Source: Terriglobia bacterium
GTDB lineage: Bacteria; Acidobacteriota; Terriglobia; Terriglobales; Acidobacteriaceae
Reading direction: 5' to 3'
Assembly (NCBI GenBank): GCA_020073665.1
Contig: JAIQEU010000011.1
Span: forward strand, 62,001 to 126,000
Length of the DNA stretch: 64,000 nt
Under the pieces are notes generated by a model, which saw nothing but the letters and a program-made list of their open reading frames with translations, was not told where the DNA came from and did not search any database. Of this stretch, positions 43,842 to 56,917 are shown piece by piece. The first letter of the stretch is position 1. Each line of letters begins with the position of its first letter. The position numbers were made by a program, and so were the translations under genes.

Positions 43842-46184
43842 CTATTGCTGGTACACGCGGAGGCGGTACTTGTCGGTTTGCGGCCCGGTTTCGCTGCCAT
43901 CGTCGTGCAGCTTGCCGTAAATGTTGAAGCCGCTCACCAGGATCGTCCAGTTGCCCGCTTTCGGACTGTTGACGGTTGCGGTCTCGCGGCCATTGAGCGT
44001 GGCGCCGTCGAGGATCAGGTTGCCGTCCGGGTCCACCACCAGCAGATCCAGATCGTTCGTGGGATAGTGGCTCCAGTCGTTGTTCCATGTAAGCTCGAAC
44101 GTGACCAGGTTCAGACCGGATGGCACGGTGTACGGAACGGTCTGCAGGTCACCCTCGTTGATGTTGCTGTACTGGCTGAACGCCGCGCTGCCCTTCTTGG
44201 TTGCGGTGATGGTAAGGGCGGCGGAAATTCTGCCAGCGTTGGTCCAGTCTCCAACCAGCGCGACTCGCATGTAACCCGGCTCCGGGCCGTCGATGGAGAA
44301 CGAGCCGGGAGCATTCACGAAGGTGTTGATGGGATAATCGCCTTCGCCGTGGGCCGAGGTCTTGGCTTGGTGTACGGCGAGGATCAGGTCATCGCCGAAC
44401 AACTGGTTTTGCTGGTCGGGCGGCAGTTCAGGTTTCACCACCGTCAGAGTCACCTGAACGTTGCCGATGTCCTTGCCAATCTGAATCAGGAATTCCTTTC
44501 GCTGTCCGGGAACCATTTTGACGCCGAAGAAGTTCAGCGGGGTGCCGGGATCCAGCTTGTGCGTCACCAGGCCGAACTTCAGGATGTTGGCGGCAACGTC
44601 GCCAGACCACGCCGGGAAGGCGGGAAGCTTCCGTGCCACTTTGTGTTTCTGCAACAGGGTGAGCGCGTTGCCCACGTCGAGATAGCCGGTGCCCTGGTCG
44701 AGGCGATTCGACTTGTCGCCCAGCACGTTGGGATTGGCGCCCGCCACCAGCGCGTTGCGGACTTGCACCGCAGGCGTCTTGGGAGCAGCGTAGTTCAGCA
44801 GGGCAGCGGCTCCGGCCACGGCAGGAGCGGCAAAGGAAGTTCCGGCCACCAGCGAGATTCCGCCGTTCGCCCCTTCCACCAGGTTGAAGTAGCCCGCCGA
44901 GGTCACGTCCACTCCTCGGCGTCCGTCGGCCGTGGGGCCGCGGGAACTGAAGGTTGCGGTCTGGATGGTGTTGTTGGGACGAGCCAACAAGCCAAGTCCC
45001 ACGGCACACTGGCCCTCAATGCCAAAGAGGTCCCAGAAGATGCGTTCCTGGGCGGGGATATTTGCCGCCGCCGAGGAAATGGAGCCCAGGCCAGTCGCCG
45101 GGCTGCCCACGGTCAGCAGAGCAGGTCCGGCATTGCCGGCAGAAGTCGCCAGGGTGATGCCGGCGTCGATCATCTGCTGCGTGAGCAGGTCTTCGAGGTC
45201 ACGGCCAGCCGCCTCGGTGGGACCGCCCAGGCTCATGTTTACGACCTGGATGTTGAGCGAGTCGTACACGTAGGGATCATCCTCGGTGCCGGTGCCGGAA
45301 ACCGGAACTGACGGCATGCCAGCCAGGAAGTTCTTCTTGATGGTGATGATGCGGTCCATGGCAGCAATGATGCGATCGTCCGGCGCACCGCCACCGGTGG
45401 ACGGAAATACTTTCACCGCGTAGATACTGGCTCCGGGCGCGACCCCCACCATGGGGACGAGAGAGGTACCGTCACCATTGTCGAACACTGAGTCGGGAGC
45501 GTTGAGCTGCATCGATGGTACCAGGCAGCCGTCGTTGGAGAAGATGAAGCCGACGTGGGCCGCAATCATGGTGCCCACCCAGGTGCCATGGTCGCCATTG
45601 AGCGTGCTGGTGGCTGAGCCGACGGGGTCTTCGTCCGAGGGCACAAGGTTCTCACCGCCGATCACGGTGCCGGCAAGCGCGGGCACGACATCCGCATTGT
45701 TTGCCGTGCCGGTATCAATCACCGCCACGATGATGCCCTGGCCCAGATCGCCCGAGGCTTGCAGCGCCGTCGCGTTAATCAGCAGGTTGTTGAACAAGTA
45801 GTCGTTGGGCAGGGTCTTCGCATTGTTGATCAGGGTATTGGTGTCGAAGTTCCTTTGACCGAGCGACTGGAGGTTGACGACGCCTTTGCTGATGCCTTTC
45901 GGCGCACGCGGTGTGGGTGTGTACACCTCCACGGTCTTGCGAACCTTGAATTGCGGGTTCGCGTTCAAGGCGGCCATGGAACTGGTGGGGATGGTTGCGG
46001 AAACGGCGGTGACGTTCTGGAACTCATGATCGATTTTGCCGCCGAGGGCCTGAACTTTCTGCTTCAACTCCTGCCGCGAGCCGGTGGAACGAATGATGAC
46101 CCGCTGGCTACCGGCAAAGGCGGAGAGAGTAAAGAGGAGGAGTGACAATATAGAAAGAGACACACGAATAAAACGGGAATGCAT
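43842..46184 (-). CDS. Secreted subtilisin-like serine protease (S8)
   Basis: A 780-residue exported protease. The signal peptide is about 1-24. An I9-type inhibitor propeptide is plausible in 25-90 (RVIIRSTGSRQELKQKVQAL). The catalytic domain has Asp in VAVIDTGTANNAD, His in NGDHGTWVGTMIAAH and Ser in SLVAGTSFAAPAVAGAAALL, with the oxyanion Asn in TSAGNAGPALL. The C-terminal 250 residues (including DLDLLVVDPDGNLILDG) look like beta-sandwich domains. GGAGG precedes the ATG. It has an intrinsic terminator. Confidence 0.93.
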   Translation of the reverse strand: MHSRFIRVSLSILSLLLFTLSAFAGSQRVIIRSTGSRQELKQKVQALGGKIDHEFQNVTAVSATIPTSSMAALNANPQFKVRKTVEVYTPTPRAPKGISKGVVNLQSLGQRNFDTNTLINNAKTLPNDYLFNNLLINATALQASGDLGQGIIVAVIDTGTANNADVVPALAGTVIGGENLVPSDEDPVGSATSTLNGDHGTWVGTMIAAHVGFIFSNDGCLVPSMQLNAPDSVFDNGDGTSLVPMVGVAPGASIYAVKVFPSTGGGAPDDRIIAAMDRIITIKKNFLAGMPSVPVSGTGTEDDPYVYDSLNIQVVNMSLGGPTEAAGRDLEDLLTQQMIDAGITLATSAGNAGPALLTVGSPATGLGSISSAAANIPAQERIFWDLFGIEGQCAVGLGLLARPNNTIQTATFSSRGPTADGRRGVDVTSAGYFNLVEGANGGISLVAGTSFAAPAVAGAAALLNYAAPKTPAVQVRNALVAGANPNVLGDKSNRLDQGTGYLDVGNALTLLQKHKVARKLPAFPAWSGDVAANILKFGLVTHKLDPGTPLNFFGVKMVPGQRKEFLIQIGKDIGNVQVTLTVVKPELPPDQQNQLFGDDLILAVHQAKTSAHGEGDYPINTFVNAPGSFSIDGPEPGYMRVALVGDWTNAGRISAALTITATKKGSAAFSQYSNINEGDLQTVPYTVPSGLNLVTFELTWNNDWSHYPTNDLDLLVVDPDGNLILDGATLNGRETATVNSPKAGNWTILVSGFNIYGKLHDDGSETGPQTDKYRLRVYQQ

Positions 46185-46545: not shown

Positions 46546-46574
46546 TTGACAGTGCCAGTACTATGACGCATAGT
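46546..46574 (+). promoter_or_regulatory. Probable promoter of secreted paralogue 1
   Basis: TTGACA (46546-46551), 17 bp spacer and CATAGT (46569-46574). The start point would be about 46582, giving a leader of about 107 nt with CAGGAGA before the ATG at 46689. Confidence 0.5.
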
Positions 46575-46688
46575 TATGGACGCTTTGTTGGGGTGCATTC
46601 AGCAACTGCGAGCACAGAATCCCCGAATTTCGTGCCGTGAGCACGTCAGATAGTTCTACCGTTTTCTCTAAACTCTCAGGAGAATTGC

Positions 46689-48263
46689 ATGAAAAAGGCC
46701 TATACGCTGTCGCTACTGATTTGCCTGCTGCTGTGGATGATCCCAGCTTCGGCACAGAACGTTCAACGCGGGGCATTCGTCATCCACGAATATCACCACG
46801 ACGTCTCGCCGCCGGCCCGTGACTTGGTATCGAGCGATTTGTTCATCGGAAATCGCGCGGCATTGCTGTCGCCGATTCGCGTTCTGGGCGCAGCGGGGAA
46901 TACATCGCGCGATCCAGTGGCACAACATGAAATTCTTCCGGACGTAGGGACCACCAACCTGGTCAATATTGATGGGATTCCGCACACCGGCTTCGCACCG
47001 CCCGACACCAATGCTTCAGTGGGTGGCACGCAGGTAGTGGAAACCGTGAACCTGAATTACGCGGTTTACGACAAGACGACCGGCGCACAAATCAAGGCGC
47101 CGACCGCGATCAGTTCGCTCTTCTCCGGGTTCGGTGGCACCTGCCAGACCGGAAGCACCAGCGACCCGGTTGTGCTGTGGGACAAAGCGGCGTCGCGTTG
47201 GGTGATCAGCATTCTGGCCTTTACCGGAAACTTCACCTCCACCGAGTGCTACGCGGTTTCGACCTCGACGGACGCCACCGGCACCTATAACCGCTACGGT
47301 TTCACCTTCGCTAACGGGCTCCTGGCTGACTTCCCGAAGACCGGTGTTTGGCCGGATGCTTATTATCTGACGTTCAACGGTTTTCAGGGCGGGGCGAGCT
47401 TCGTTGGAGCTGAGCCTTGCGCACTGGATCGCACCAAAATGCTTGCCGGCTCGGCCGCGACTGCGGTTTGCTTCCCGCCAAAGCCAACCAACTACAGCTT
47501 GCTGCCGTCGGACATGGATGGCACGATTGCTCCGCCGGCCGGCGCTCCGAACCACTTTCTGGAACTGGACGCAGTTTCATTCACCAAGCTCGACCAGTTT
47601 GACTTCCACGTGGACTTCGTCAATACCAACAACTCGACGTTCACTGGACCGATCGCGGTTACGATTCCGACCTGGACGCAGATCTGCGTCACTCAGGGAC
47701 GTGCTTGCATACCGGAACCGTCGCCGGGCGAACCACTGGATGGGAGAGCGGATAAACTGGTGTTCCGGTTGGCCTACCGTAACTTCGGCGACCACGAAGC
47801 CTTAGTCGTGAACCACGCCGTGAAACCCAGCACCGGCACCGCTACGGCGGCAACGCGCTGGTACGAGTTCCGCTCGACACCTCCGGGTGGAGCCTTCACC
47901 ATGTTCCAGGCGGGTACGTTCCAGCATCCCAAGATCAGTGTGTGGAACGGCAGCATTGCCATGGACAAGGTCGGCGATATCGCCTTGGGCATGAGTGCTT
48001 CCAGCTCTACGCTTGATCCCAGCGTGGTTTACACGGGCCGGGTTCCAACCGATGCGAAGGGCAAGATGGAGTCGCCGTTCGTCGTGGTTAAGGGTACGGG
48101 CGTGCAGACCGCCACGCAGAATCGCTGGGGCGATTACTCGACCATGAGCATCGATCCTTCCGATGATTGCACGTTCTGGTTCGCCCAGGAGTACATCAAG
48201 GCCACGGGCAGTTTCAATTGGAACACTCGGTTGAACAGCTTCAAGTTTACGGGCTGCCACTAA
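46689..48263 (+). CDS. Secreted protein of unknown family, paralogue 1
   Basis: A 524-residue exported protein with signal peptide 1-22 (ending PASAQ). The body contains repeated aromatic strand motifs (WDKAASRWVISIL, GVWPDAYYLTFN and TRWYEFRST), suggesting a beta-propeller or beta-sandwich, and about eight cysteines that match those of the protein at 51770. The shared motifs are LLPSDMDG, PPAGAPN, FHVDFVNTNNS, RNFGDHEALVVNHAV and DDCTFWFAQEYI, ending NTRLNSFKFTGC. I know no named family for it. CAGGAGA precedes the ATG. An intrinsic terminator follows. Confidence 0.8.
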   Translation: MKKAYTLSLLICLLLWMIPASAQNVQRGAFVIHEYHHDVSPPARDLVSSDLFIGNRAALLSPIRVLGAAGNTSRDPVAQHEILPDVGTTNLVNIDGIPHTGFAPPDTNASVGGTQVVETVNLNYAVYDKTTGAQIKAPTAISSLFSGFGGTCQTGSTSDPVVLWDKAASRWVISILAFTGNFTSTECYAVSTSTDATGTYNRYGFTFANGLLADFPKTGVWPDAYYLTFNGFQGGASFVGAEPCALDRTKMLAGSAATAVCFPPKPTNYSLLPSDMDGTIAPPAGAPNHFLELDAVSFTKLDQFDFHVDFVNTNNSTFTGPIAVTIPTWTQICVTQGRACIPEPSPGEPLDGRADKLVFRLAYRNFGDHEALVVNHAVKPSTGTATAATRWYEFRSTPPGGAFTMFQAGTFQHPKISVWNGSIAMDKVGDIALGMSASSSTLDPSVVYTGRVPTDAKGKMESPFVVVKGTGVQTATQNRWGDYSTMSIDPSDDCTFWFAQEYIKATGSFNWNTRLNSFKFTGCH

Positions 48264-48286
48264 GGCAGGTCCGCGGAGGCCAATAA

Positions 48287-48315
48287 GGGGCGCCTGATGA
48301 GGGCGCCCTTTTTTT
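48287..48315 (+). terminator. Intrinsic terminator after secreted paralogue 1
   Basis: GGGCGCC and GGCGCCC form a stem around TGATGAG, followed by TTTTTTT. It lies about 25 bp after the stop at 48263. Confidence 0.8.
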
Positions 48316-48486
48316 GATTGGGTTTGGCATACGGAGGCACTCGAGTTAAGCGGTCGAAGATGGAAATCAGGTGTGGCGTACGCTAGAATAAATTGCTCGT
48401 AGCCCTCCTTAGCATTGCGAAATTCCACAGCCAAGGCCGGCAAGAAAAATCGGGTTCGCTGCGTCGAACCGCGAATCAGGGTAACT

Positions 48487-49548
48487 ATGTCACGAAGACG
48501 GATTGACTTTCCCTTTCTACTTGTTCTCTTTCTGATGTTGATTGCACCGCTTGGTATCTCAGCCAGTGGCCAGGCGGAACCGGAATCGAAACCTGCGAAG
48601 ACTGACACGCTCCCATCGCTGCCCTCGACCGCAACCTTGCCCAAGAATTACCCGGTCATCACTGTCCAGGGGCGGTGCCCCAAGCCGGCCGCCAACAGCA
48701 AGACGCCGGCGAAGGGGGAATGCAAGGTCACGGTGAGCCGCGCGGAATTCGAAGCGCTGGTGAATGCGATCAACCCGAGCATGGTGAAAGGTGAACGGCG
48801 CGAACTAGCCGCCACCTACGGGAAGGCGCTGGCGCTTTCCCAGGAGGCGTCGAGGCGAGGCTTGGATCGAGATCCACGCTTGCAGGCACAACTCCGCTAT
48901 TCCAGTTTGATTCTCATGGCCAACGCGATGGGCAAAGAGATCTACAAGGATTCGCTCAATGCTCCGGCTGAGGATGCGGAAAAGTACTATGCGACTCACA
49001 AGTCGCTGTTCGAACGCTTCAACTTCGAGCGCATTTACGTGCCCCTGGAGAGGCGAACACCGGTGGTACCGAAATCGGCTGACGCGAACGCTGCGCTGGA
49101 ACAGAACAGCGACCTCAAAGAAAAAGAGATGAAGGACCTGGCGAACCAGATGTACGCACGGGCCGTGGCCGGGGAGGATTTTGCCAAGCTGCAGCGGGAA
49201 GCGTTCAAAACCGCGGAAATCGCAACCGACCCGAACGTCAAAGTGGAAGACTTGCGACGCGGTGATTTGTCAGAAGTCCAGAATGTGATTTTTGATCTCG
49301 AGCCGGGCAAGATCTCAGCACTGCTGACCGACCAGACCGGGTACTTCATTTACAAGATGGTTTCGAGGACCGTGCCCCCGTTTGAGACGGTAAAGCCGCA
49401 AGTGACGGTGCGCATGCAGAACGACAAATCCGCCGAAGCCGTGCGCCAGATAGAAAGGCTGTCAAAAGCCCAAGTGAACGCTGCCTATTTCGATAAGTAC
49501 GATCCGCCCCCGCCGGACCAGAACGAGCCGGATATGGATACCGATTAA
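48487..49548 (+). CDS. Secreted SurA/PrsA-like peptidylprolyl isomerase
   Basis: A 353-residue exported protein with signal peptide about 1-27. The N-terminal chaperone-like part has VTVSRAEFEALVNAINPSM and AATYGKALALSQEASRRGL, as in SurA-type proteins. The central parvulin-like domain is divergent (EDFAKLQREAFKT, VKVEDLRRGDLSEVQNVIFDLEPGKISALLTDQTGYFIYKMVSR). The C-terminal tail is acidic. The start ATG at 48487 has AGGG upstream. It probably assists folding of secreted or outer membrane proteins, of which several are encoded nearby. Confidence 0.8.
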   Translation: MSRRRIDFPFLLVLFLMLIAPLGISASGQAEPESKPAKTDTLPSLPSTATLPKNYPVITVQGRCPKPAANSKTPAKGECKVTVSRAEFEALVNAINPSMVKGERRELAATYGKALALSQEASRRGLDRDPRLQAQLRYSSLILMANAMGKEIYKDSLNAPAEDAEKYYATHKSLFERFNFERIYVPLERRTPVVPKSADANAALEQNSDLKEKEMKDLANQMYARAVAGEDFAKLQREAFKTAEIATDPNVKVEDLRRGDLSEVQNVIFDLEPGKISALLTDQTGYFIYKMVSRTVPPFETVKPQVTVRMQNDKSAEAVRQIERLSKAQVNAAYFDKYDPPPPDQNEPDMDTD

Positions 49549-49606
49549 GGGGCAGGTAACCGGGACGCAGGTCGCAGGTGACTGGCGCGCAGATAATCCA
49601 CCTGGC

Positions 49607-50551
49607 TTATCGCACTATCCACTCGGTGACCTCGTGCATGCTGGCGAGCGCTGTGCTGTAGGTCATAGCTGCGCAGAACAGGGTTGCCAGCACCAGAGGC
49701 GCGGCATACCACCAACGGTAAGTTGCGGGCGAAGGCTCAACGCTCCACGCGAACAGCCGCTCCACGCGCGTGCTCAAGGATCCGGGCGAAGTGTGAAGCA
49801 GCGCGGTGGTCAGTTCAGCCGAAGGTTGAACCGGGGCAAACCGCGAGAGCTTGATCAAGGCCGCGGCCAAGTCGAGTGCATCGGAAAAACTGGCGACCGC
49901 GGCATCATCCGCTGCCATCTCGGCGGCCTCCGACCAGGCCGACTCCAGGCGGGCCATACCCGGGAACGCGGAAAACCGAAACAGAAGCTTCTTCAGATTG
50001 TCGTGACGCCGCACGTGCGCGATCTCGTGCTGCAGCGCGGTGCGGAGTTCCTGCCCGGTGAGGATGGCGACCGCCGTCTCCGAGACCAGCACCCGCGGCG
50101 CGCAGACGCCGGCGACCGTGAGGCTCGGCGCGTTTTTTCCGGTGCAAAAGACCGGCACGGTCGTCCCCGATTCGATGACCGTGGCTCCATTCATCCAGGC
50201 TGACAATGTCCGCGAAGTCCTCGCCTGCGCCACCGCGCCGCGAAAAACACCGGCAGCCATCAGGCCCAGGCAGCAGAAACCGAGCACCAGCAGCGGAGGG
50301 CCGAAGGGCTCATCGGTCGACTTGGGTTCCAGTAGCAAGAACGACGGCAAGGTGTAAGCCAGCGTCACCGCCGCCGAAAGTGCGAACGGCAGCATACGCA
50401 GGGTGCACAACAGGTCGGCTTCGTGTCGCGCAGAGAGATGGCCACAGGCGCGGTGCGCCAGTTTCCACCCCGACGCCACGGCCAGGGACAGCGCGCCATA
50501 CAGCAGAACGAAGATGGCCAGCGAGACTCCGATGCAACGGACGGCAAACAT
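49607..50551 (-). CDS. BlaR1-type M56 membrane metallopeptidase
   Basis: A 314-residue membrane peptidase with N-terminal hydrophobic segments (about 5-25, 50-75 and 85-105) and HEIAHVRRHDN, the HExxH zinc motif of M56. No penicillin-binding sensor domain follows, so this is a short BlaR1-like protein. It starts directly after the stop of the BlaI-type repressor gene with no gap (TGA then ATG), as in other repressor-protease pairs. It presumably cleaves the repressor or another regulator on a signal. Confidence 0.85.
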   Translation of the reverse strand: MFAVRCIGVSLAIFVLLYGALSLAVASGWKLAHRACGHLSARHEADLLCTLRMLPFALSAAVTLAYTLPSFLLLEPKSTDEPFGPPLLVLGFCCLGLMAAGVFRGAVAQARTSRTLSAWMNGATVIESGTTVPVFCTGKNAPSLTVAGVCAPRVLVSETAVAILTGQELRTALQHEIAHVRRHDNLKKLLFRFSAFPGMARLESAWSEAAEMAADDAAVASFSDALDLAAALIKLSRFAPVQPSAELTTALLHTSPGSLSTRVERLFAWSVEPSPATYRWWYAAPLVLATLFCAAMTYSTALASMHEVTEWIVR

Positions 50552-51004
50552 TCAGCGCGTCTCCTTGTCCTTGTTGTCCTTGTTGTGCTTGCCGCTCATG
50601 CGGCGGCGTTCGCGCTCGACCAGTTGCTGCAATTCGTCCAACAGTTCGCTGTCGTGTTCACTGACCGCCTCTACCAGGTAAGAAAGCGGAAGCGAAGGAG
50701 TGGCTTCGGAACCGAGCAGTTGGCGAATGGCTTGCCCTGCCGCCGCCCTCTGAATCTCCTGCTGGGTGTAGCGCAGGGAATAACGAAATGCCCGGCCCTC
50801 GGCTACGCGGTCGAGCAGGTTCTTTTTGTAAAGGCGGTCGAGGGTCGTCATCACCGTGGTATATGCGAGGGGCAGATTGCCATCGTCGATTAGTTCGCGA
50901 ACGGTGGCGCTGTCGCGCTGCGAAAGAGATTGAAGCAGCTGTTCCTCAAGCGGGCCGATATTGGTTAACGGAAGTGGTTGAAAAAGACGGAAAATCCGGT
51001 TCAT
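50552..51004 (-). CDS. BlaI/MecI-type transcriptional repressor
   Basis: A 150-residue winged-helix protein. GPLEEQLLQSLSQRDSATVREL and LAYTTVMTTLDRLYKKNLLDR match the DNA-binding domain of BlaI/MecI/CopY, and the C-terminal helices (LLDELQQLVERERRRM) form the dimer interface. AGGTGA precedes the ATG at 51004. It is the first gene of a two-gene unit with the M56 peptidase. No beta-lactamase gene is adjacent, so the regulated genes are unknown. No TACA-N2-TGTA operator was seen in the upstream sequence. Confidence 0.88.
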   Translation of the reverse strand: MNRIFRLFQPLPLTNIGPLEEQLLQSLSQRDSATVRELIDDGNLPLAYTTVMTTLDRLYKKNLLDRVAEGRAFRYSLRYTQQEIQRAAAGQAIRQLLGSEATPSLPLSYLVEAVSEHDSELLDELQQLVERERRRMSGKHNKDNKDKETR

Positions 51005-51296
51005 GCGTTATTCACCTGGGTTAGCGAATCAACACCGCGATGCGGCGCAGGCCTGCGCGATCTTGCAAGCTTATCAGTGGAAGTGGAATTGTCAATCGCT
51101 GAAGGTCTCTAATCCCCTCACAAATTCCGGCGGATCTTTAAGGAGAGGACCGACGACTCTAACTACGAGTCCAAGTGAGAGACGAAAGCCCCTGGGTATC
51201 CCGCTTGCCGCGGAATAGCAGGCTGAGGATCGCAGAACACCGCAGAAGTCTCGATTCTGGTGGTGGTTAAGGGAAGCGAAGCCAGGGCTGACAGCG

Positions 51297-51316
51297 CACG
51301 AACCTGAGGGTTCGTG
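51297..51316. terminator. Hairpin in the intergenic region, function unclear
   Basis: CACGAACC and GGTTCGTG pair around TGAG. It has no U-tract on either side, so it may be a regulatory or repeat-derived structure rather than a terminator. Confidence 0.3.
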
Positions 51317-51713
51317 TTCCGAATGGCGCAGAGGACATCTCGAGATGCTGTTTTCCCATGCGCACCCTCACGGCCCCTTTCCTTCAACTAGAACTGGTAG
51401 TAGTAATTGGCGGCCACTAGAAATGCATGGGGGCCTTCGCCACCAGTCGCTCAATTGGAGGCCAATCCAGTTGTCGACGACCGGTGGTTCCGGGCCCCCA
51501 GCGATAGATTCTACTCCTCAACGCTAGTATCCACGCAGTGTTTGGAGGCCCCATCGCCGTGCGGCTTGGACCCGCATGGGCGGGAGTTCGGGGCCATCGC
51601 GACCTCCTCAAATGGGCAGGATACTTCCTCAGGGTCTAGGTAAACGCGGGGCTGGGTGCGGGTTTTGACAGCCATGCGCACCGAAAAAAAGCGCCGCCTG
51701 AGCTGAAGAACGG

Positions 51714-51722
51714 TGATACAAT
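51714..51722 (+). promoter_or_regulatory. Probable extended -10 promoter of secreted paralogue 2
   Basis: TGATACAAT: TG one base before TACAAT (51717-51722). The start point would be near 51729, a leader of about 41 nt with GGAGG at 51757-51761 before the ATG at 51770. No -35 was seen. Confidence 0.5.
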
Positions 51723-51769
51723 CCCCGGCGCGTTGCAATTTAGACTTTAGAAAAGTGGAGGCCAATCCA

Positions 51770-53353
51770 ATGACGCATTCGCGGATAGTTGTGTCTACAA
51801 TCTGTCTGTTCTTGCTTGCTGTCCTCGCGGCAACAGCTCAAAGTTCACCCTCAGTTGTCTCCGTAACTCATCACGACACTTCAGCACCACTGCGTACGAT
51901 GGTACTCACACCCTCGCATGTGAAAGGTATTGTTCCAGGCGAGCACGCCGAGTTTGAGGGATTTTCGAAACCGGTCAAAGTGCAATACTACCCCGACGCG
52001 GTCCTGCAAAACTTCGCAGGCCCGGGCTCGGGTGCGGCTTCAGGGTTAAATTTTGCCGGCGTCGGCGAAGGCGACTACGGCTACTCGGTGACTTTCCCTG
52101 TACCGGACTCGAACGGCGCGGTCGGCGCGACTCAGTACGTGCAAAGCGTAGCCGCTTCATTTGCGGTGTTCGACAAGAAGACGGGTGCGCTTGTACTGGC
52201 GCCGGCGAGCATCAGCTCCCTGTTCGTCAACTTCGGCGGACCATGTGAAACCTCGGCGGCCGGCGATTCCGCAGTCAATTATGACAAGATGGCGGACCGG
52301 TGGGTGATCGGCACCATGGCGCAAAGACTGCCATCCGGAGAAGGATTTGGCTACTCTTGTATCGCAGTCTCGACTTCATCCGACGCAACCGGTTCTTACT
52401 ATCGGTACGCTCTCCAGCTAAGCGCGATCGACTATCAGAAAATCGGTGTGTGGCCGGATGCGTACTATCTGGGTTTCAACAACCCTGCCAACACCAACGC
52501 CCGGGTATGTGCGATGGACCGTAATGCCATGCTGAAAGGTGCCACGGCACAGTCGGTCTGTTTCACCCGGACGGGCATAAACACGTTGCTGCCGTCTGAT
52601 ATGGACGGCCGCACCCAGCCTCCGGCTGGGGCCCCCAACTATTTCGTTGGCGGCATCAATTCCGGGAAGAACGTGCTCAACCTTTTCAAGTTCCACGTGG
52701 ACTTCACCAATACCAAGAACTCGAAACTCACCGGCCCGATCGCCATCAACGTGGCACCCTACAATCCCTCCTGCCTTGCAACCGGCGGTTACTACCGGAC
52801 TTGCGTTCCGCAGAAGGGGAGCACCACGCAGCTGGAGACTTTGAGCGATCGTCTGATGTATCGCAACGCGTATCGCAACTTCTCCGACCACGAGACACTG
52901 GTCGTCAATCATGCCGTCGATGTCGCCGGCGCCAACGGGCACAGCGTAGGCATCCGCTGGTACGAACTGCGCGCCCTGGAAAACGGAAACTTCACGGTGT
53001 TCCAACAGGGAACGTATGCACCTGACTCCAGCAGCCGCTTCATGGGCAGTACGGCCATGGATGGCGCGGGCGACATCGCTCTGGGTTATGGAATTTCCAG
53101 CAGCAAGATGTTCCCGTCGATCGGGTTCAGCGGCCGAGTACCCACCGATCCGGCCGGCACGATGGGCGGCGAGAAGGTCATTTTCGCCGGCCAGAGTGCC
53201 AGCGGCAACACTCTGTGGGGCGACTACACCAGCTTGTCAGTCGATCCCGCCGACGACTGCACGTTCTGGTACACCAGTCAGTACTACAAGACCGGTCAAT
53301 CACTCAACTGGAGCACTCGCGTTGCATCGTTCAAGTTCCCAGGATGCAAGTGA
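51770..53353 (+). CDS. Secreted protein of unknown family, paralogue 2
   Basis: A 527-residue exported protein paralogous along its whole length to the one at 46689. Shared features: signal peptide (1-22), ISSLF..FGG.C, DKMADRWVIG, GVWPDAYYLGFN, LLPSDMDG, PPAGAPN, FHVDFTNTKNSKLTGPIA, RNFSDHETLVVNHAV, GRVPTDPAGTMGG and DDCTFW, ending STRVASFKFPGCK. The cysteine pattern is conserved. It has a longer N-terminal segment before the shared part. GGAGG is correctly spaced from the ATG; the frame extends upstream to 51713 without a ribosome site. Confidence 0.8.
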   Translation: MTHSRIVVSTICLFLLAVLAATAQSSPSVVSVTHHDTSAPLRTMVLTPSHVKGIVPGEHAEFEGFSKPVKVQYYPDAVLQNFAGPGSGAASGLNFAGVGEGDYGYSVTFPVPDSNGAVGATQYVQSVAASFAVFDKKTGALVLAPASISSLFVNFGGPCETSAAGDSAVNYDKMADRWVIGTMAQRLPSGEGFGYSCIAVSTSSDATGSYYRYALQLSAIDYQKIGVWPDAYYLGFNNPANTNARVCAMDRNAMLKGATAQSVCFTRTGINTLLPSDMDGRTQPPAGAPNYFVGGINSGKNVLNLFKFHVDFTNTKNSKLTGPIAINVAPYNPSCLATGGYYRTCVPQKGSTTQLETLSDRLMYRNAYRNFSDHETLVVNHAVDVAGANGHSVGIRWYELRALENGNFTVFQQGTYAPDSSSRFMGSTAMDGAGDIALGYGISSSKMFPSIGFSGRVPTDPAGTMGGEKVIFAGQSASGNTLWGDYTSLSVDPADDCTFWYTSQYYKTGQSLNWSTRVASFKFPGCK

Positions 53354-53845
53354 GGCAGGGCGCATGGCGCTCCCCCCGGAGCGCCTGATCGCGTAGCCAT
53401 CCGGTGTTACAAGACGGGGCCGAGCGGACAATGTTTGGCCCCTCTGCATTGCGCCGGTCACAGTCAAGAACGTGGTTGCGCAACATATCCTTAAAGGATT
53501 GGGAAAGAAAGTTACATGGACGAAAATCTGGCCAAGAGTGCAAACGAAAACTGGTAGTAGTTGGCGGGCGTCGCTAATCTAGCCCGCATCCTGTTCGGAT
53601 GGCCTCCAAATAGGAATAGGCACAAGCTCATGCGTTCCAGACGCTAAGCTTGTGCCTTTTTTTTCAGAACTGACAACTCGCGGATCGCGGCCTCGGCAGT
53701 ACTAACTATGGTAGTAGACGCGGCAAGCCTTTAGGCTGATTCGGGTTTCGGCAGAGGCAAACCCTTTGAGCCGAAAATCAGAAGTTCGTATCGCACCGCC
53801 GAGACGTCGGCGGGAAATCTTTTCGGGCAAGTTTCAAAAAAAACC
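53354..53845. other. Intergenic region upstream of the TonB-dependent receptor
   Basis: About 490 bp with a strong terminator (53619-53664), the word AACTGGTAGTAGT again at 53549-53561, a third related word GGTAGTAG at 53710, and hairpins TTTCGGC/GCCGAAA (53745-53774) and CCGCCGA/TCGGCGG (53796-53813). No gene was seen. Confidence 0.6.
53619..53664 (+). terminator. Strong intrinsic terminator
   Basis: GGCACAAGC (53619-53627) pairs with GCTTGTGCC (53648-53656), followed by TTTTTTTT. It lies about 265 bp after the stop of secreted paralogue 2 and 180 bp before the receptor gene, so it may end the former transcript or act as an attenuator of the latter. Confidence 0.75.
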
Positions 53846-56800
53846 ATGTCACGTCATCGATTACTTGCGCGTCTGCTTGTCCTCCTTGGTTTGGTTTCTG
53901 TTTCCCAGTTTGCCATGCTGGCAGTCGCCCAGAATCCCATGGGGACTCTGCGCGGAGTGGTGCAGGATGGAAACGGCGGGCGGGTCCCGGCGGCCACCAT
54001 CGTGGTGGAGGCGCGCCAGTCTTCGCTGAAGCGTTCCACCAAAACCGACGACCACGGAGAGTTCCGTCTGAACGACCTGCTGCCCGGCACGTATCAACTG
54101 ATGGTGAGTGCAAGAGATTTTGCGGATGCGAGTGCGGATGTCGCAGTGGTGGTCAGCTCCGTGCGGGACGTGGCGGTGACGCTGAAACCGGCCGCGGTGC
54201 AGCAGACGGTGAACGTGCAGGCCTCGGCTCCTTCGGTTACCACCCAACCCATCGACCTGGCCAGCGCCGTTCACGGCGGTGCAGTGAGTGCGCATGACCT
54301 GGAGACCATTCCGCTGGCGGCCCGCAGTTTCGCCAACATTGCGTACCTGGTCCCCGGGACCGAGCCGGTCGAGCCCTCCGATCCGACCAAGGCGCGCATT
54401 ACCGCGGTTGCGTTCGGTGGCAGCTCCGGCTTGAACGTCCAGCTCTCGGTGGATGGCGGCGACAATTCCGACGATTACATCGGCGGTTTCCTGCAGAATT
54501 TCTCGCCCGACGCGATCCAGGAATTCGCCGTACACACTTCGCAGCAGGACGCGGATACGGGTGGCACGGTGGGCGGCTCGGTGATGATTACCACCAAGCG
54601 TGGCACCAACCAGTGGCATGGCGGCGGCGCATTCTACGGGCGAGCAGCGGCGCTGAATGCGCGCTTTCCCATCGACAATCCCGCGCCTAATCCCAAGCAG
54701 GATTTCTCTCGCCAGAATTACATTGCAACCATCGGCGGACCGCTGAAGAGCGACAAACTCTGGCTTTTCTCCTCATTCGAATATGTGCACGAGAATGCCA
54801 GCATCGCGTACAGTCCGGCGAGCCTCACCGAATTTAATGCCCTGGCTTCGCTGGCCTCGCAGGGGCTGATTCCCGGCGTCAGTTCAATTCCCGTTCCCAA
54901 TAGCACGCCGGTGCCGTTTCGCGACTACCTGGGTACGGTGCGTTTCGACTGGGCGCAGTCACAGAACTCGCAGTGGTACCTGCGCGCGGCCGTAGACAAC
55001 TACACCACCCACAATGACCTGGTACAGCAGGCCACTCTGCCCTCGACGGGCGCGACCTCGGGCTCCAACTACCTGAACCTGGTCATCGGCAACACGCACA
55101 CCTTCAGCCCGACCTGGTTAGGGACTTTCATCTTTGATGCCAGCGGTCTGCACCACACGGAATCGCGCAACGCGACTCTCGGTTTTGCCCTGGCGTTCCC
55201 GTTCAGCGCGACCTTTCATACCATTTCAGGATTTGAGACGTTTGGCGACAACCAGTTCGCCACGCCAATCACCGCTTTCCCGGTCCTGCGCAACCAGGAG
55301 AAATACCAGCTCCGCTATGACGTAGGCCGGGGCTCGGGCGATCACGCGCCTAAGTTCGGAATCAACTTTATCCATGAGCCGGTACTGAGCGGCGCGCTCT
55401 CGGGGACAGCGGAGAACTTCATACAGTTTCCGGTGAACCCGTCGGACTACCTGGGCGACCCGGCAGAGTTCGCGACCGACATATCCTGCGGAGCCGCAAG
55501 TGCGGCCACCTGCACCTTCACACCTGCGGGCAATGGCAGCTTCTCGCAGAATGTGCAGCGGCTGGGGCTTTATTTCCAGGACTCCTGGCGGGCCACGCGC
55601 CGTCTTACGGTGAACTATGGCCTGCGCTGGGACACTACGTTTGGACTCTTCGAAGCTTCGGGCCGAACCCAAGGGCAGAATCCCGCTTACCTGACACTCC
55701 AACAGCTCGGAATACCCCTGGTGAATCGAACTCCGCATGATTATCGCAAGGGCTTCGGGCCGCGGCTGGGCCTGGCCTATGCCCTGGGCGAGAAATCAGA
55801 CACGGTGATTCGCGCCGGGATTGGCCTTTACTACAACGATCTAGCCCAGAATGGATGGGTGGGCGCGCTGCAAGCGGTGAACGCGCCGGCGGGGCCCTGC
55901 AACCTGTCGACGAACCCGGATCCGGCCGATCCGGCAAATGCGGGATGCATCCCGGGCGGCGGGCAGGGTGCGATTATCGATGGAAACTACAAGACGCCGT
56001 ATGCCCTGCATGCCAGCGCCGGCATACAGCATGCGTTCGGGGAGAAATGGACGCTCAGCGCGGACTTTACCCACGAGAAGGGCAACCATTCGTATCAAGC
56101 CTTGAACTACACCGCGGGTTTCACGCTGTTTGCACCGTCCGCGGTCGATCCGGCCCTGGTGCCCAATGTGACCGTCTACCGCACCGGAAACCGTTCCGTC
56201 TACGACGCGGTGACGGTGCGGCTGCAGGGCAACGTTTCCCGCCGCTTCAACCTGACGGCGCATTACACCCTGGCTACCGCGAAAACCTGGGGCTGCGTGG
56301 TGGGCGAGTTGTTTGATTACGTGGATGGCGTGTGCAATCCGCTGAATCCCTTCGGGCCGGGTGACTACGGTCCATCCGGGGAAGACGTGCGCCATCGCTT
56401 CGTTCTGGCCGGGACGTACTACGCGCCCGGTGGTTTTGAGTTGAGCACGCTTGCGCAGGTAGAGAGTGCCCGGCCGTTTACGCTGGGCACCGGCGTGGAT
56501 GTGAACGGGTTGGGGGATCCGGGCAACAATCGCGCGGTGGTGAATGGTGTGCAAACGTCACTCGACCAGTTCCGCGGAACTCCTTTTGCGCAAGTTGATC
56601 TGCGGGTGGCTCGCCCGATAAGGGTTGGTGATCGCTGGACGGTCATTCCGTTCGCAGAATTCTTCAATCTTTTCAACCGCAACAATCCCGCCAACAATTA
56701 TGTCGCAGATATCGGCGCGCTGAATGTGCCGCCCGCCGAGGTGGACGCTGGAAACGTGACCCATCTGTGCGGCGACGCGAACTGCAACACGCTGATTCCG

Positions 56801-56917
56801 ATCACCAGCCTGAACCAGTTGAAAGCACCGGCGGGCGCGGTGGGAGATTTCTTTGGGCCGGGGACCACGGTGGGGATTCCGTTCGCGGCGCAGCTGGGAG
56901 TTCGGGTGAGCTTCTAG
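53846..56917 (+). CDS. TonB-dependent receptor with carboxypeptidase-regulatory N-terminus
   Basis: A 1,023-residue outer membrane receptor. The signal peptide is about 1-27. A CarboxypepD-regulatory beta-sandwich covers about 30-115 (GTLRGVVQDGNGGRVPAATIVV and FRLNDLLPGTYQLMV). The plug follows (about 130-270; QLSVDGGDNSDDYIGGFLQNFSPDAIQEFAVHTS), then a long beta-barrel, ending LGVRVSF with the usual aromatic last residue. The architecture is typical of acidobacterial receptors for glycans or siderophores. The substrate is unknown. A run of eight A residues before the ATG replaces an obvious Shine-Dalgarno. Confidence 0.9.
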   Translation: MSRHRLLARLLVLLGLVSVSQFAMLAVAQNPMGTLRGVVQDGNGGRVPAATIVVEARQSSLKRSTKTDDHGEFRLNDLLPGTYQLMVSARDFADASADVAVVVSSVRDVAVTLKPAAVQQTVNVQASAPSVTTQPIDLASAVHGGAVSAHDLETIPLAARSFANIAYLVPGTEPVEPSDPTKARITAVAFGGSSGLNVQLSVDGGDNSDDYIGGFLQNFSPDAIQEFAVHTSQQDADTGGTVGGSVMITTKRGTNQWHGGGAFYGRAAALNARFPIDNPAPNPKQDFSRQNYIATIGGPLKSDKLWLFSSFEYVHENASIAYSPASLTEFNALASLASQGLIPGVSSIPVPNSTPVPFRDYLGTVRFDWAQSQNSQWYLRAAVDNYTTHNDLVQQATLPSTGATSGSNYLNLVIGNTHTFSPTWLGTFIFDASGLHHTESRNATLGFALAFPFSATFHTISGFETFGDNQFATPITAFPVLRNQEKYQLRYDVGRGSGDHAPKFGINFIHEPVLSGALSGTAENFIQFPVNPSDYLGDPAEFATDISCGAASAATCTFTPAGNGSFSQNVQRLGLYFQDSWRATRRLTVNYGLRWDTTFGLFEASGRTQGQNPAYLTLQQLGIPLVNRTPHDYRKGFGPRLGLAYALGEKSDTVIRAGIGLYYNDLAQNGWVGALQAVNAPAGPCNLSTNPDPADPANAGCIPGGGQGAIIDGNYKTPYALHASAGIQHAFGEKWTLSADFTHEKGNHSYQALNYTAGFTLFAPSAVDPALVPNVTVYRTGNRSVYDAVTVRLQGNVSRRFNLTAHYTLATAKTWGCVVGELFDYVDGVCNPLNPFGPGDYGPSGEDVRHRFVLAGTYYAPGGFELSTLAQVESARPFTLGTGVDVNGLGDPGNNRAVVNGVQTSLDQFRGTPFAQVDLRVARPIRVGDRWTVIPFAEFFNLFNRNNPANNYVADIGALNVPPAEVDAGNVTHLCGDANCNTLIPITSLNQLKAPAGAVGDFFGPGTTVGIPFAAQLGVRVSF

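Follow-up and report, generated by a model that had tools for sequence, protein, structure and literature searches.

In the 64,000-nucleotide stretch of a Terriglobia bacterium analysed here, called the window (contig JAIQEU010000011.1, positions 62,001 to 126,000), two genes, A and B, appear to encode exported, disulfide-stabilised β-propellers that bind an extracellular polymer and belong to a BlaI-read regulon together with a gene for a TonB-type outer-membrane protein. The probability of this reading as a whole is put at about 0.45. A, B and the TonB-type gene would form a small regulon through an operator-like inverted repeat, TACTA-N7-TAGTA (the dyad), which is most likely read by a BlaI-type repressor encoded between A and B. 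The repressor's M56-type peptidase partner would cut it upon a signal, and the cell, with the repressor released, would make the outer-membrane protein and the propellers. The latter may attach to, and perhaps also cut, a polymer outside the cell, most likely a glycan, and the contact would be made by the top-face residues D113, D166, D221, R365 and W483-G484-D485-Y486 of B.

Gene A (46689-48263, plus strand) encodes 524 residues and gene B (51770-53353, plus strand) 527 residues, counted from the ATG at 51770; an alternative GTG at 51713 would lengthen B to 546 residues. An earlier note on this DNA, made from its letters alone, had described two long secreted paralogues of an unrecognised family, with open reading frames, coordinates and lengths that proved correct. 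The two proteins are paralogues, 43% identical over 535 aligned columns (E 2e-133). The cysteine pattern and motifs that the note saw in both hold as well: the alignment spans the whole length and matches eight cysteines, C152, C187, C244, C261, C333, C340, C494 and C523 of A and C159, C197, C247, C264, C335, C345, C497 and C526 of B, not counting Cys12. These eight columns are 92-98% cysteine in an 85-row family alignment, A2, composed of A, B and 83 of 86 domain copies from other loci (those of L015, L050 and L052 were left out). From the blade topology of B we infer the disulfide pairs C159-C197, C247-C264, C335-C345 and C497-C526. Both N-termini are signal-like, with mean Kyte-Doolittle values of 2.88 for A and 2.87 for B over 12 residues, followed by ASAQ and ATAQ, respectively. 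These starts, the conserved cysteines and the Ig-like and anchor extensions of relatives agree with the secretion proposed in the note, and A and B are predicted to be exported.

A and B are confidently predicted to be seven-bladed β-propellers. The AlphaFold2 model of A (residues 80-524) has a predicted local distance difference test score (pLDDT) of 95.3 and a predicted template modelling score (pTM) of 0.93; the model of B has a pLDDT of 88.7 and a pTM of 0.90. The strands form seven four-stranded blades, strand 90-96 of B closing blade 7, in a blade assignment that is our own. VIA-align superimposed A on YncE with a Z of 24.9 (3.3 Å, 301 residues aligned), on CylK with a Z of 24.8 (3.8 Å, 337 aligned) and on the PLL5 lectin with a Z of 22.5 (3.6 Å, 311 aligned); matches within 1 Z of each other are regarded as tied. 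CylK was also the best Foldseek match of A (E 1.9e-6), with sialidases and GH93 chains scoring high, and B matched neuraminidase-like chains. The two confident models and the matches to solved seven-bladed propellers (Z 22-25) thus bear out the propeller that the earlier note had guessed from predicted β-rich repeats. A common fold says nothing about function.

The dyad is the candidate link between the genes. At one mismatch, TACTA-N7-TAGTA has exactly three sites in the 64 kb, compared to 0.03 expected, and none of 100 shuffled sequences reached three. The sites lie only in the gaps before A, between the BlaI gene and B, and before the TonB-type gene. The first, TACTATGACGCATAGTT (46559-46575), is 113 bp upstream of A. 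The second (51386-51402) is 381 bp from the BlaI gene and 367 bp from B. The third, TACTAACTATGGTAGTA (53700-53716), is 129 bp before the TonB-type gene, a place where the dyad is also found in L122, L145 and L146. Here the longer 17-bp form, TACTAMC-NNN-GKTAGTA, is present, exactly in the window and also in L122; with up to three mismatches it has five matches in the 64 kb versus 0.8 expected. A weaker copy at 53543-53559, between B and the TonB-type gene, has three mismatches to TACTAMCNNNGKTAGTA and falls outside the one-mismatch count. The promoters that the earlier note had assigned to each gene did not stand out, the consensus scan yielding 3 promoter-like sites compared to 2.5 expected. 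One of them, upstream of A (46546-46574), overlaps the dyad there.

Two other kinds of candidate site were tried and rejected. CopY-type TACANNTGTA sites are no more frequent than chance predicts (3 versus 4.3 expected), and a 10-mer shared by the regions before the BlaI genes of the window and L122 is matched in 51 of 500 shuffles. The minus strand at 51388-51441 reads ATGGEGPHAFLVAANYYYQF and a stop, resembling the end of an outer-membrane barrel; a remnant of such a protein is doubtful, and the likeness may be due to chance, because the segment overlaps the dyad at 51386-51402. A similar TPANYYQF is found on the minus strand at 53548-53571, over the weaker copy.

The dyad recurs in other genomes. 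One search found relatives of the propellers encoded in at least 565 stretches of genome contigs, and 80 of these loci were kept for neighbourhood and dyad counts. They contain 15 dyad sites, ten of which lie between -700 and +30 of a propeller gene, a zone that makes up 5.6% of the bases. Among 150 combinations of half-site and spacing (30 letter orders of TACTA, gaps of 5-9), TACTA-N7-TAGTA scored highest; the next ones (7, 6 and 5) represent this dyad in another register or with another spacing, and the best unrelated combination reached 4. With a spacing of 7 or 8, the dyad is present at 16 of the 53 propeller copies in loci labelled as acidobacterial and at none of the 33 others. It also precedes the TonB-type gene in 11 of 21 other genomes, where decoy dyads reached at most 2 (L153, with 93 bases upstream, was excluded from this set). 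L145 and L146, of genus g66, have two sites each per 15 kb, one before the propeller gene and the other between the BlaI and TonB-type genes. Four tandem propeller genes in L016 (5761-13224) each have their own dyad, with a spacing of 8, and so does the TonB-type gene of G010 (C33), which matching gene places identify as the same genome. Since the spacing is 8 at both kinds of gene there and 7 at the three sites of the window, the TonB and propeller sites co-vary, which argues for one factor. An exact TACTA-N7-TAGTA was also seen in L127 (3470-3486; G028), about 300 bp downstream of the M56 gene.

The window encodes a BlaI-family repressor with an M56 partner, both above the Pfam cut-offs (PF03965 and PF05569). 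Such pairs are known elsewhere for the β-lactam response, and autoregulation is common among BlaI proteins; the dyad at 51386-51402, 381 bp from the BlaI gene, also faces B. The site before A can be written as TACTAT-N5-ATAGTT. According to the available part of PMC8457756, BlaI_0696 of Clostridium thermocellum reads inverted GTCTAT sequences 5 nt apart before its target genes. No motif letters were found in the available part of a paper on a mycobacterial BlaI (PMC12565901). The BlaI-type repressor of the window probably reads the dyad, as judged by this analogy, and the TonB-type gene, which the earlier note did not name, seems to belong to this regulon too. The placement of the dyad and its likeness to the clostridial operator now favour co-regulation, probably by BlaI. 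The regulation that the note had suspected therefore holds in outline, in the three gaps of the window, in the matching places of g66 and at other acidobacterial propellers, with BlaI as the presumed factor.

Several results weigh against the BlaI-read regulon. The pattern was fixed after the sites of the window and L122 had been viewed, which makes the count in the window circular in part; the tests on the 80 loci and on other genomes are less so. No dyad accompanies 37 of the 53 propeller copies in acidobacterial loci and all 33 others, nor does one occur in the 600 bp before the third propeller copy of the host genome. Ten of the 21 TonB upstream regions lack the spacing-7 dyad, one of these having the spacing of 8, and three of the ten propeller-zone sites (L012, L013 and L051) are at or just inside the start of the match. 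The dyad was not found in the 500 bp before the BlaI genes of L125 and L127. This last result would also be explained if the same regulon were read by a different factor and the nearness of BlaI-M56 to the TonB-type gene were incidental, as would the dyads before the TonB-type genes of G010 and G021, where the stretch fetched around them contains no BlaI gene. Such a factor is unlikely, however, given the BlaI-M56 pairs near the TonB-type gene in five other genomes (G022, G006, G005, G073 and G128) and a 6-5-6 layout that resembles the tested BlaI operator, as far as the accessible text of PMC8457756 describes it.

The propellers have thirteen invariant polar or aromatic positions by a weighted score. 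Read from the topology, top-face loops hold D113 and W483-D485-Y486 of B, with D166, D221 and R365, each conserved in 84 of 85 rows, at similar places. The relatives often carry additional domains. A C-terminal extension of more than 100 residues is present in 41 of 86 domain copies. In the set of long members, A3 (45 of 46, the distant L048 copy being excluded), choice-of-anchor D models match 13 and ASH Ig-like models 13; among the 25 of 37 families shown in the tally, MAM-like domains are further found in five members, PPC in two and chitobiase C-terminal repeats in one. The anchor, ASH, PPC and chitobiase extensions point to export and polymer contact. The ligand is probably an extracellular polymer and the polymer most likely a glycan, both the ligand and the chemistry being what we infer. 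Against this part of the proposal, the bottom loops are on average more conserved than the top ones (0.71 versus 0.56), the CBM_4_9 matches are few, in two long members and under Pfam's cut-off, and the candidate top-face residues, placed from the predicted topology, include no known catalytic one.

It is quite possible that the propellers are instead non-catalytic surface adhesins or lectins similar to the PLL propellers of Photorhabdus. PLL lectins are among the fold matches (Z 22.1-22.5), and the anchor and Ig-like extensions of relatives, as well as the four tandem copies in L016, would suit such a role. Variable binding sites would need fewer invariant positions, however, than the thirteen polar or aromatic ones of this family.

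Between A and B the earlier note had placed a parvulin-like peptidyl-prolyl isomerase (PPIase) and a repressor-peptidase pair, and Pfam matches confirm all three genes: the parvulin-type PPIase (48487-49548, plus strand; PF13145, E 1e-9 when scanned from residue 2), the M56/BlaR1-type peptidase (49607-50551, minus strand; PF05569, 31.8 bits for a cut-off of 31) and the BlaI/MecI-type repressor (50552-51004, minus strand; PF03965, E 2e-17), the candidate reader of the dyad. Downstream of B is the gene for the TonB-receptor-like outer-membrane protein with a CarboxypepD_reg domain (53846-56917, plus strand; PF25183, E 6e-76; PF13620), and an S8 subtilase gene (43842-46184, minus strand; PF00082, E 2e-31) is divergent from A. 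A terminator-like hairpin of 11 pairs followed by a T run (48285-48311, plus strand) separates A from the PPIase gene, in a scan that overall was not above chance (7 found versus 8.4 expected).

The colocalised block envisaged by the note is conserved in part. Among the genomes listed, the two of genus g66, G073 and G128, have the purF-like gene followed by the genes for the propeller, PPIase, M56, BlaI and TonB-type protein in conserved order; we take the first of these, from its sequence, to be purF. Identities to the window are 49% for the PPIase, 69% for M56, 72-73% for BlaI and 72% for the TonB-type protein. B is absent from this block, where the BlaI-TonB gap is only about 270 bp. The gap is similarly short (231 bp) in the more distant G022, so that the addition of B in the lineage of the window is the simpler reading. 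In L145 and L146 the propeller gene follows the purF-like gene with no room for a subtilase gene. An M56-BlaI pair near a TonB-like gene with a CarboxypepD_reg domain recurs in L122, L123, L124, L145 and L146, in varying orientations. None of the 80 loci, in contrast, contains a BLAST homologue of the window's PPIase, M56 or BlaI.

The PPIase might serve specifically to fold the propellers, as the block envisaged by the note implies. It adjoins a propeller gene in the window and at G073:C11 and G128:C72, and a 27% identical homologue lies some 2.5 kb away from the G073:C4 propeller. Nothing beyond this adjacency in close relatives supports the idea, which is improbable: a profile search found no PPIase in any of the 80 loci, 50 of which extend 2.5 kb or more to either side, and the hairpin stands between A and the PPIase gene. 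Among 300 genomes of the host's family, 57 encode both a propeller and a PPIase homologue and 45 a propeller and an M56 homologue. The two genes are within 10 kb of each other in at least 3 of the 57 and at least 3 of the 45, respectively, among the places listed (the host, G073 and G128), these being lower bounds since no genome contributed more than four scored candidates.

A and B did not arise by local duplication, a relationship rejected by two trees, calculated without and with the g66 copies. In the first, A groups with the host's C11 copy (SH-aLRT 96), and in the second with G128:C110 and G073:C4 (94/95), so that its position in the tree is unstable. The g66 propeller at A's place belongs to a different subfamily. 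Forcing A together with the syntenic g66 pair lowers the log-likelihood by 60 units (p-AU 0.00013, 25 rows); the constrained grouping was set from synteny, at a point when the free tree had already been seen. G128:C111 is the sister of the host's C11 copy, and each of them adjoins gatB. One genomic place (46689-48263 in the window, 6637-8217 in L145, 6945-8471 in L146) is thus occupied by different subfamilies, as if they had been exchanged.

The family was unrecognised to the earlier note and has no name in the libraries searched. A and B have no significant match in Pfam, NCBIfam, PHROG or the sequences of the Protein Data Bank (PDB). Over the propeller domain of the 85 members of A2, the best E values, 0.013 for Pfam and 0.012 for NCBIfam, are at chance level, and WD40, NHL and similar repeat models are absent from the matches. 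The A2 profile has no match among PDB sequences, and no phage match was found. Literature searches did not find the family's peptide motifs, and the opening parts of abstracts on secreted propellers contain no description of it. The 80 loci are labelled as Acidobacteriota, Chloroflexota, Actinomycetota, Pseudomonadota and others, some being metagenome bins that are possibly mislabelled. More distant relatives are encoded on plasmids of Deinococcus, Halocatena and Polymorphobacter, and the annotated ones are named hypothetical or by their PEP-CTERM tag. A propeller match at E 1e-20 is present in 89 of the 300 genomes of the host's family; the host genome has three copies.

Actinobacterial members can be found next to BNR_2-like proteins (L079 10101-12098 and L070 5541-7580, the second under Pfam's cut-off). 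The Streptomyces member adjoins a BNR_2 protein with a CBM_4_9 match below the cut-off, and the Yinghuangia member a protein whose BNR_2 score is itself below it. Comparison of profiles with these neighbours gave no significant similarity (probabilities of 4% and 1%). Pfam identifies a subtilase beside the Dyella member. A secretin that carries TPR and cohesin domains neighbours the propeller in eight loci (L039 2011-4458 and related ones), and pilin-type and SmpB genes, named from single members, recur in five loci each.

A family encoded in so many stretches, often in several copies per genome, is thus missing from the libraries searched. The dyad supplies it with a candidate regulator and partner genes, so that its function becomes approachable through the signal of BlaI-M56. 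It is conceivable, if doubtful, that BlaI-M56 of Acidobacteriota acts in trans on dispersed exported propeller enzymes and a TonB-type protein, as an undescribed regulon for sensing and using a polymer, in which the slot beside the PPIase exchanges propeller subfamilies. If true, BlaI regulation would extend to the extracellular arsenal of soil bacteria.

Compared with known systems, the window resembles the BlaI_0696 regulon, as outlined in the portion of PMC8457756 available, in having BlaI and M56 genes and inverted 6-mers 5 nt apart. It differs in its half-site, TACTA[T/C], and in its likely targets, exported propellers and a TonB-type outer-membrane protein. Among solved structures, E. 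coli YncE (PDB 3vgz) has the seven-bladed fold of A, but the identity is only 4-9%. The Photorhabdus PLL lectins (8q83, 8q82, 5c9l and 8q81) are also seven-bladed, with Z values of about 22 over 310 residues of A, but at 6-9% identity the likeness is one of fold only. CylK (7ron and 7fh6) likewise has a seven-bladed propeller, and its top rank in Foldseek and tied best Z in VIA-align would be expected if A and B were related enzymes. Criteria for an enzyme of the CylK type include Arg105 and Tyr473. Such a relationship is very improbable at 8-11% identity: CylK has an N-terminal Ca-binding β-roll, which it requires according to the accessible part of PMC8916777, whereas A and B have about 90 residues before the propeller, with no Pfam match and no modelled β-roll. 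The Asp-box (BNR) sialidases resemble A and B as Foldseek matches, but the strict box occurs in none of the 85 members and no BNR family is among the members' Pfam matches. An Asp-box-like hairpin, SxDATGxY, joins strands c and d of blade 2, and 72 of the 85 members have a hairpin of this type. According to the available portion of PMC2716378, Asp-box propellers, whose top face does the work, also have bottom loops that are better conserved than the top ones, as this family does.

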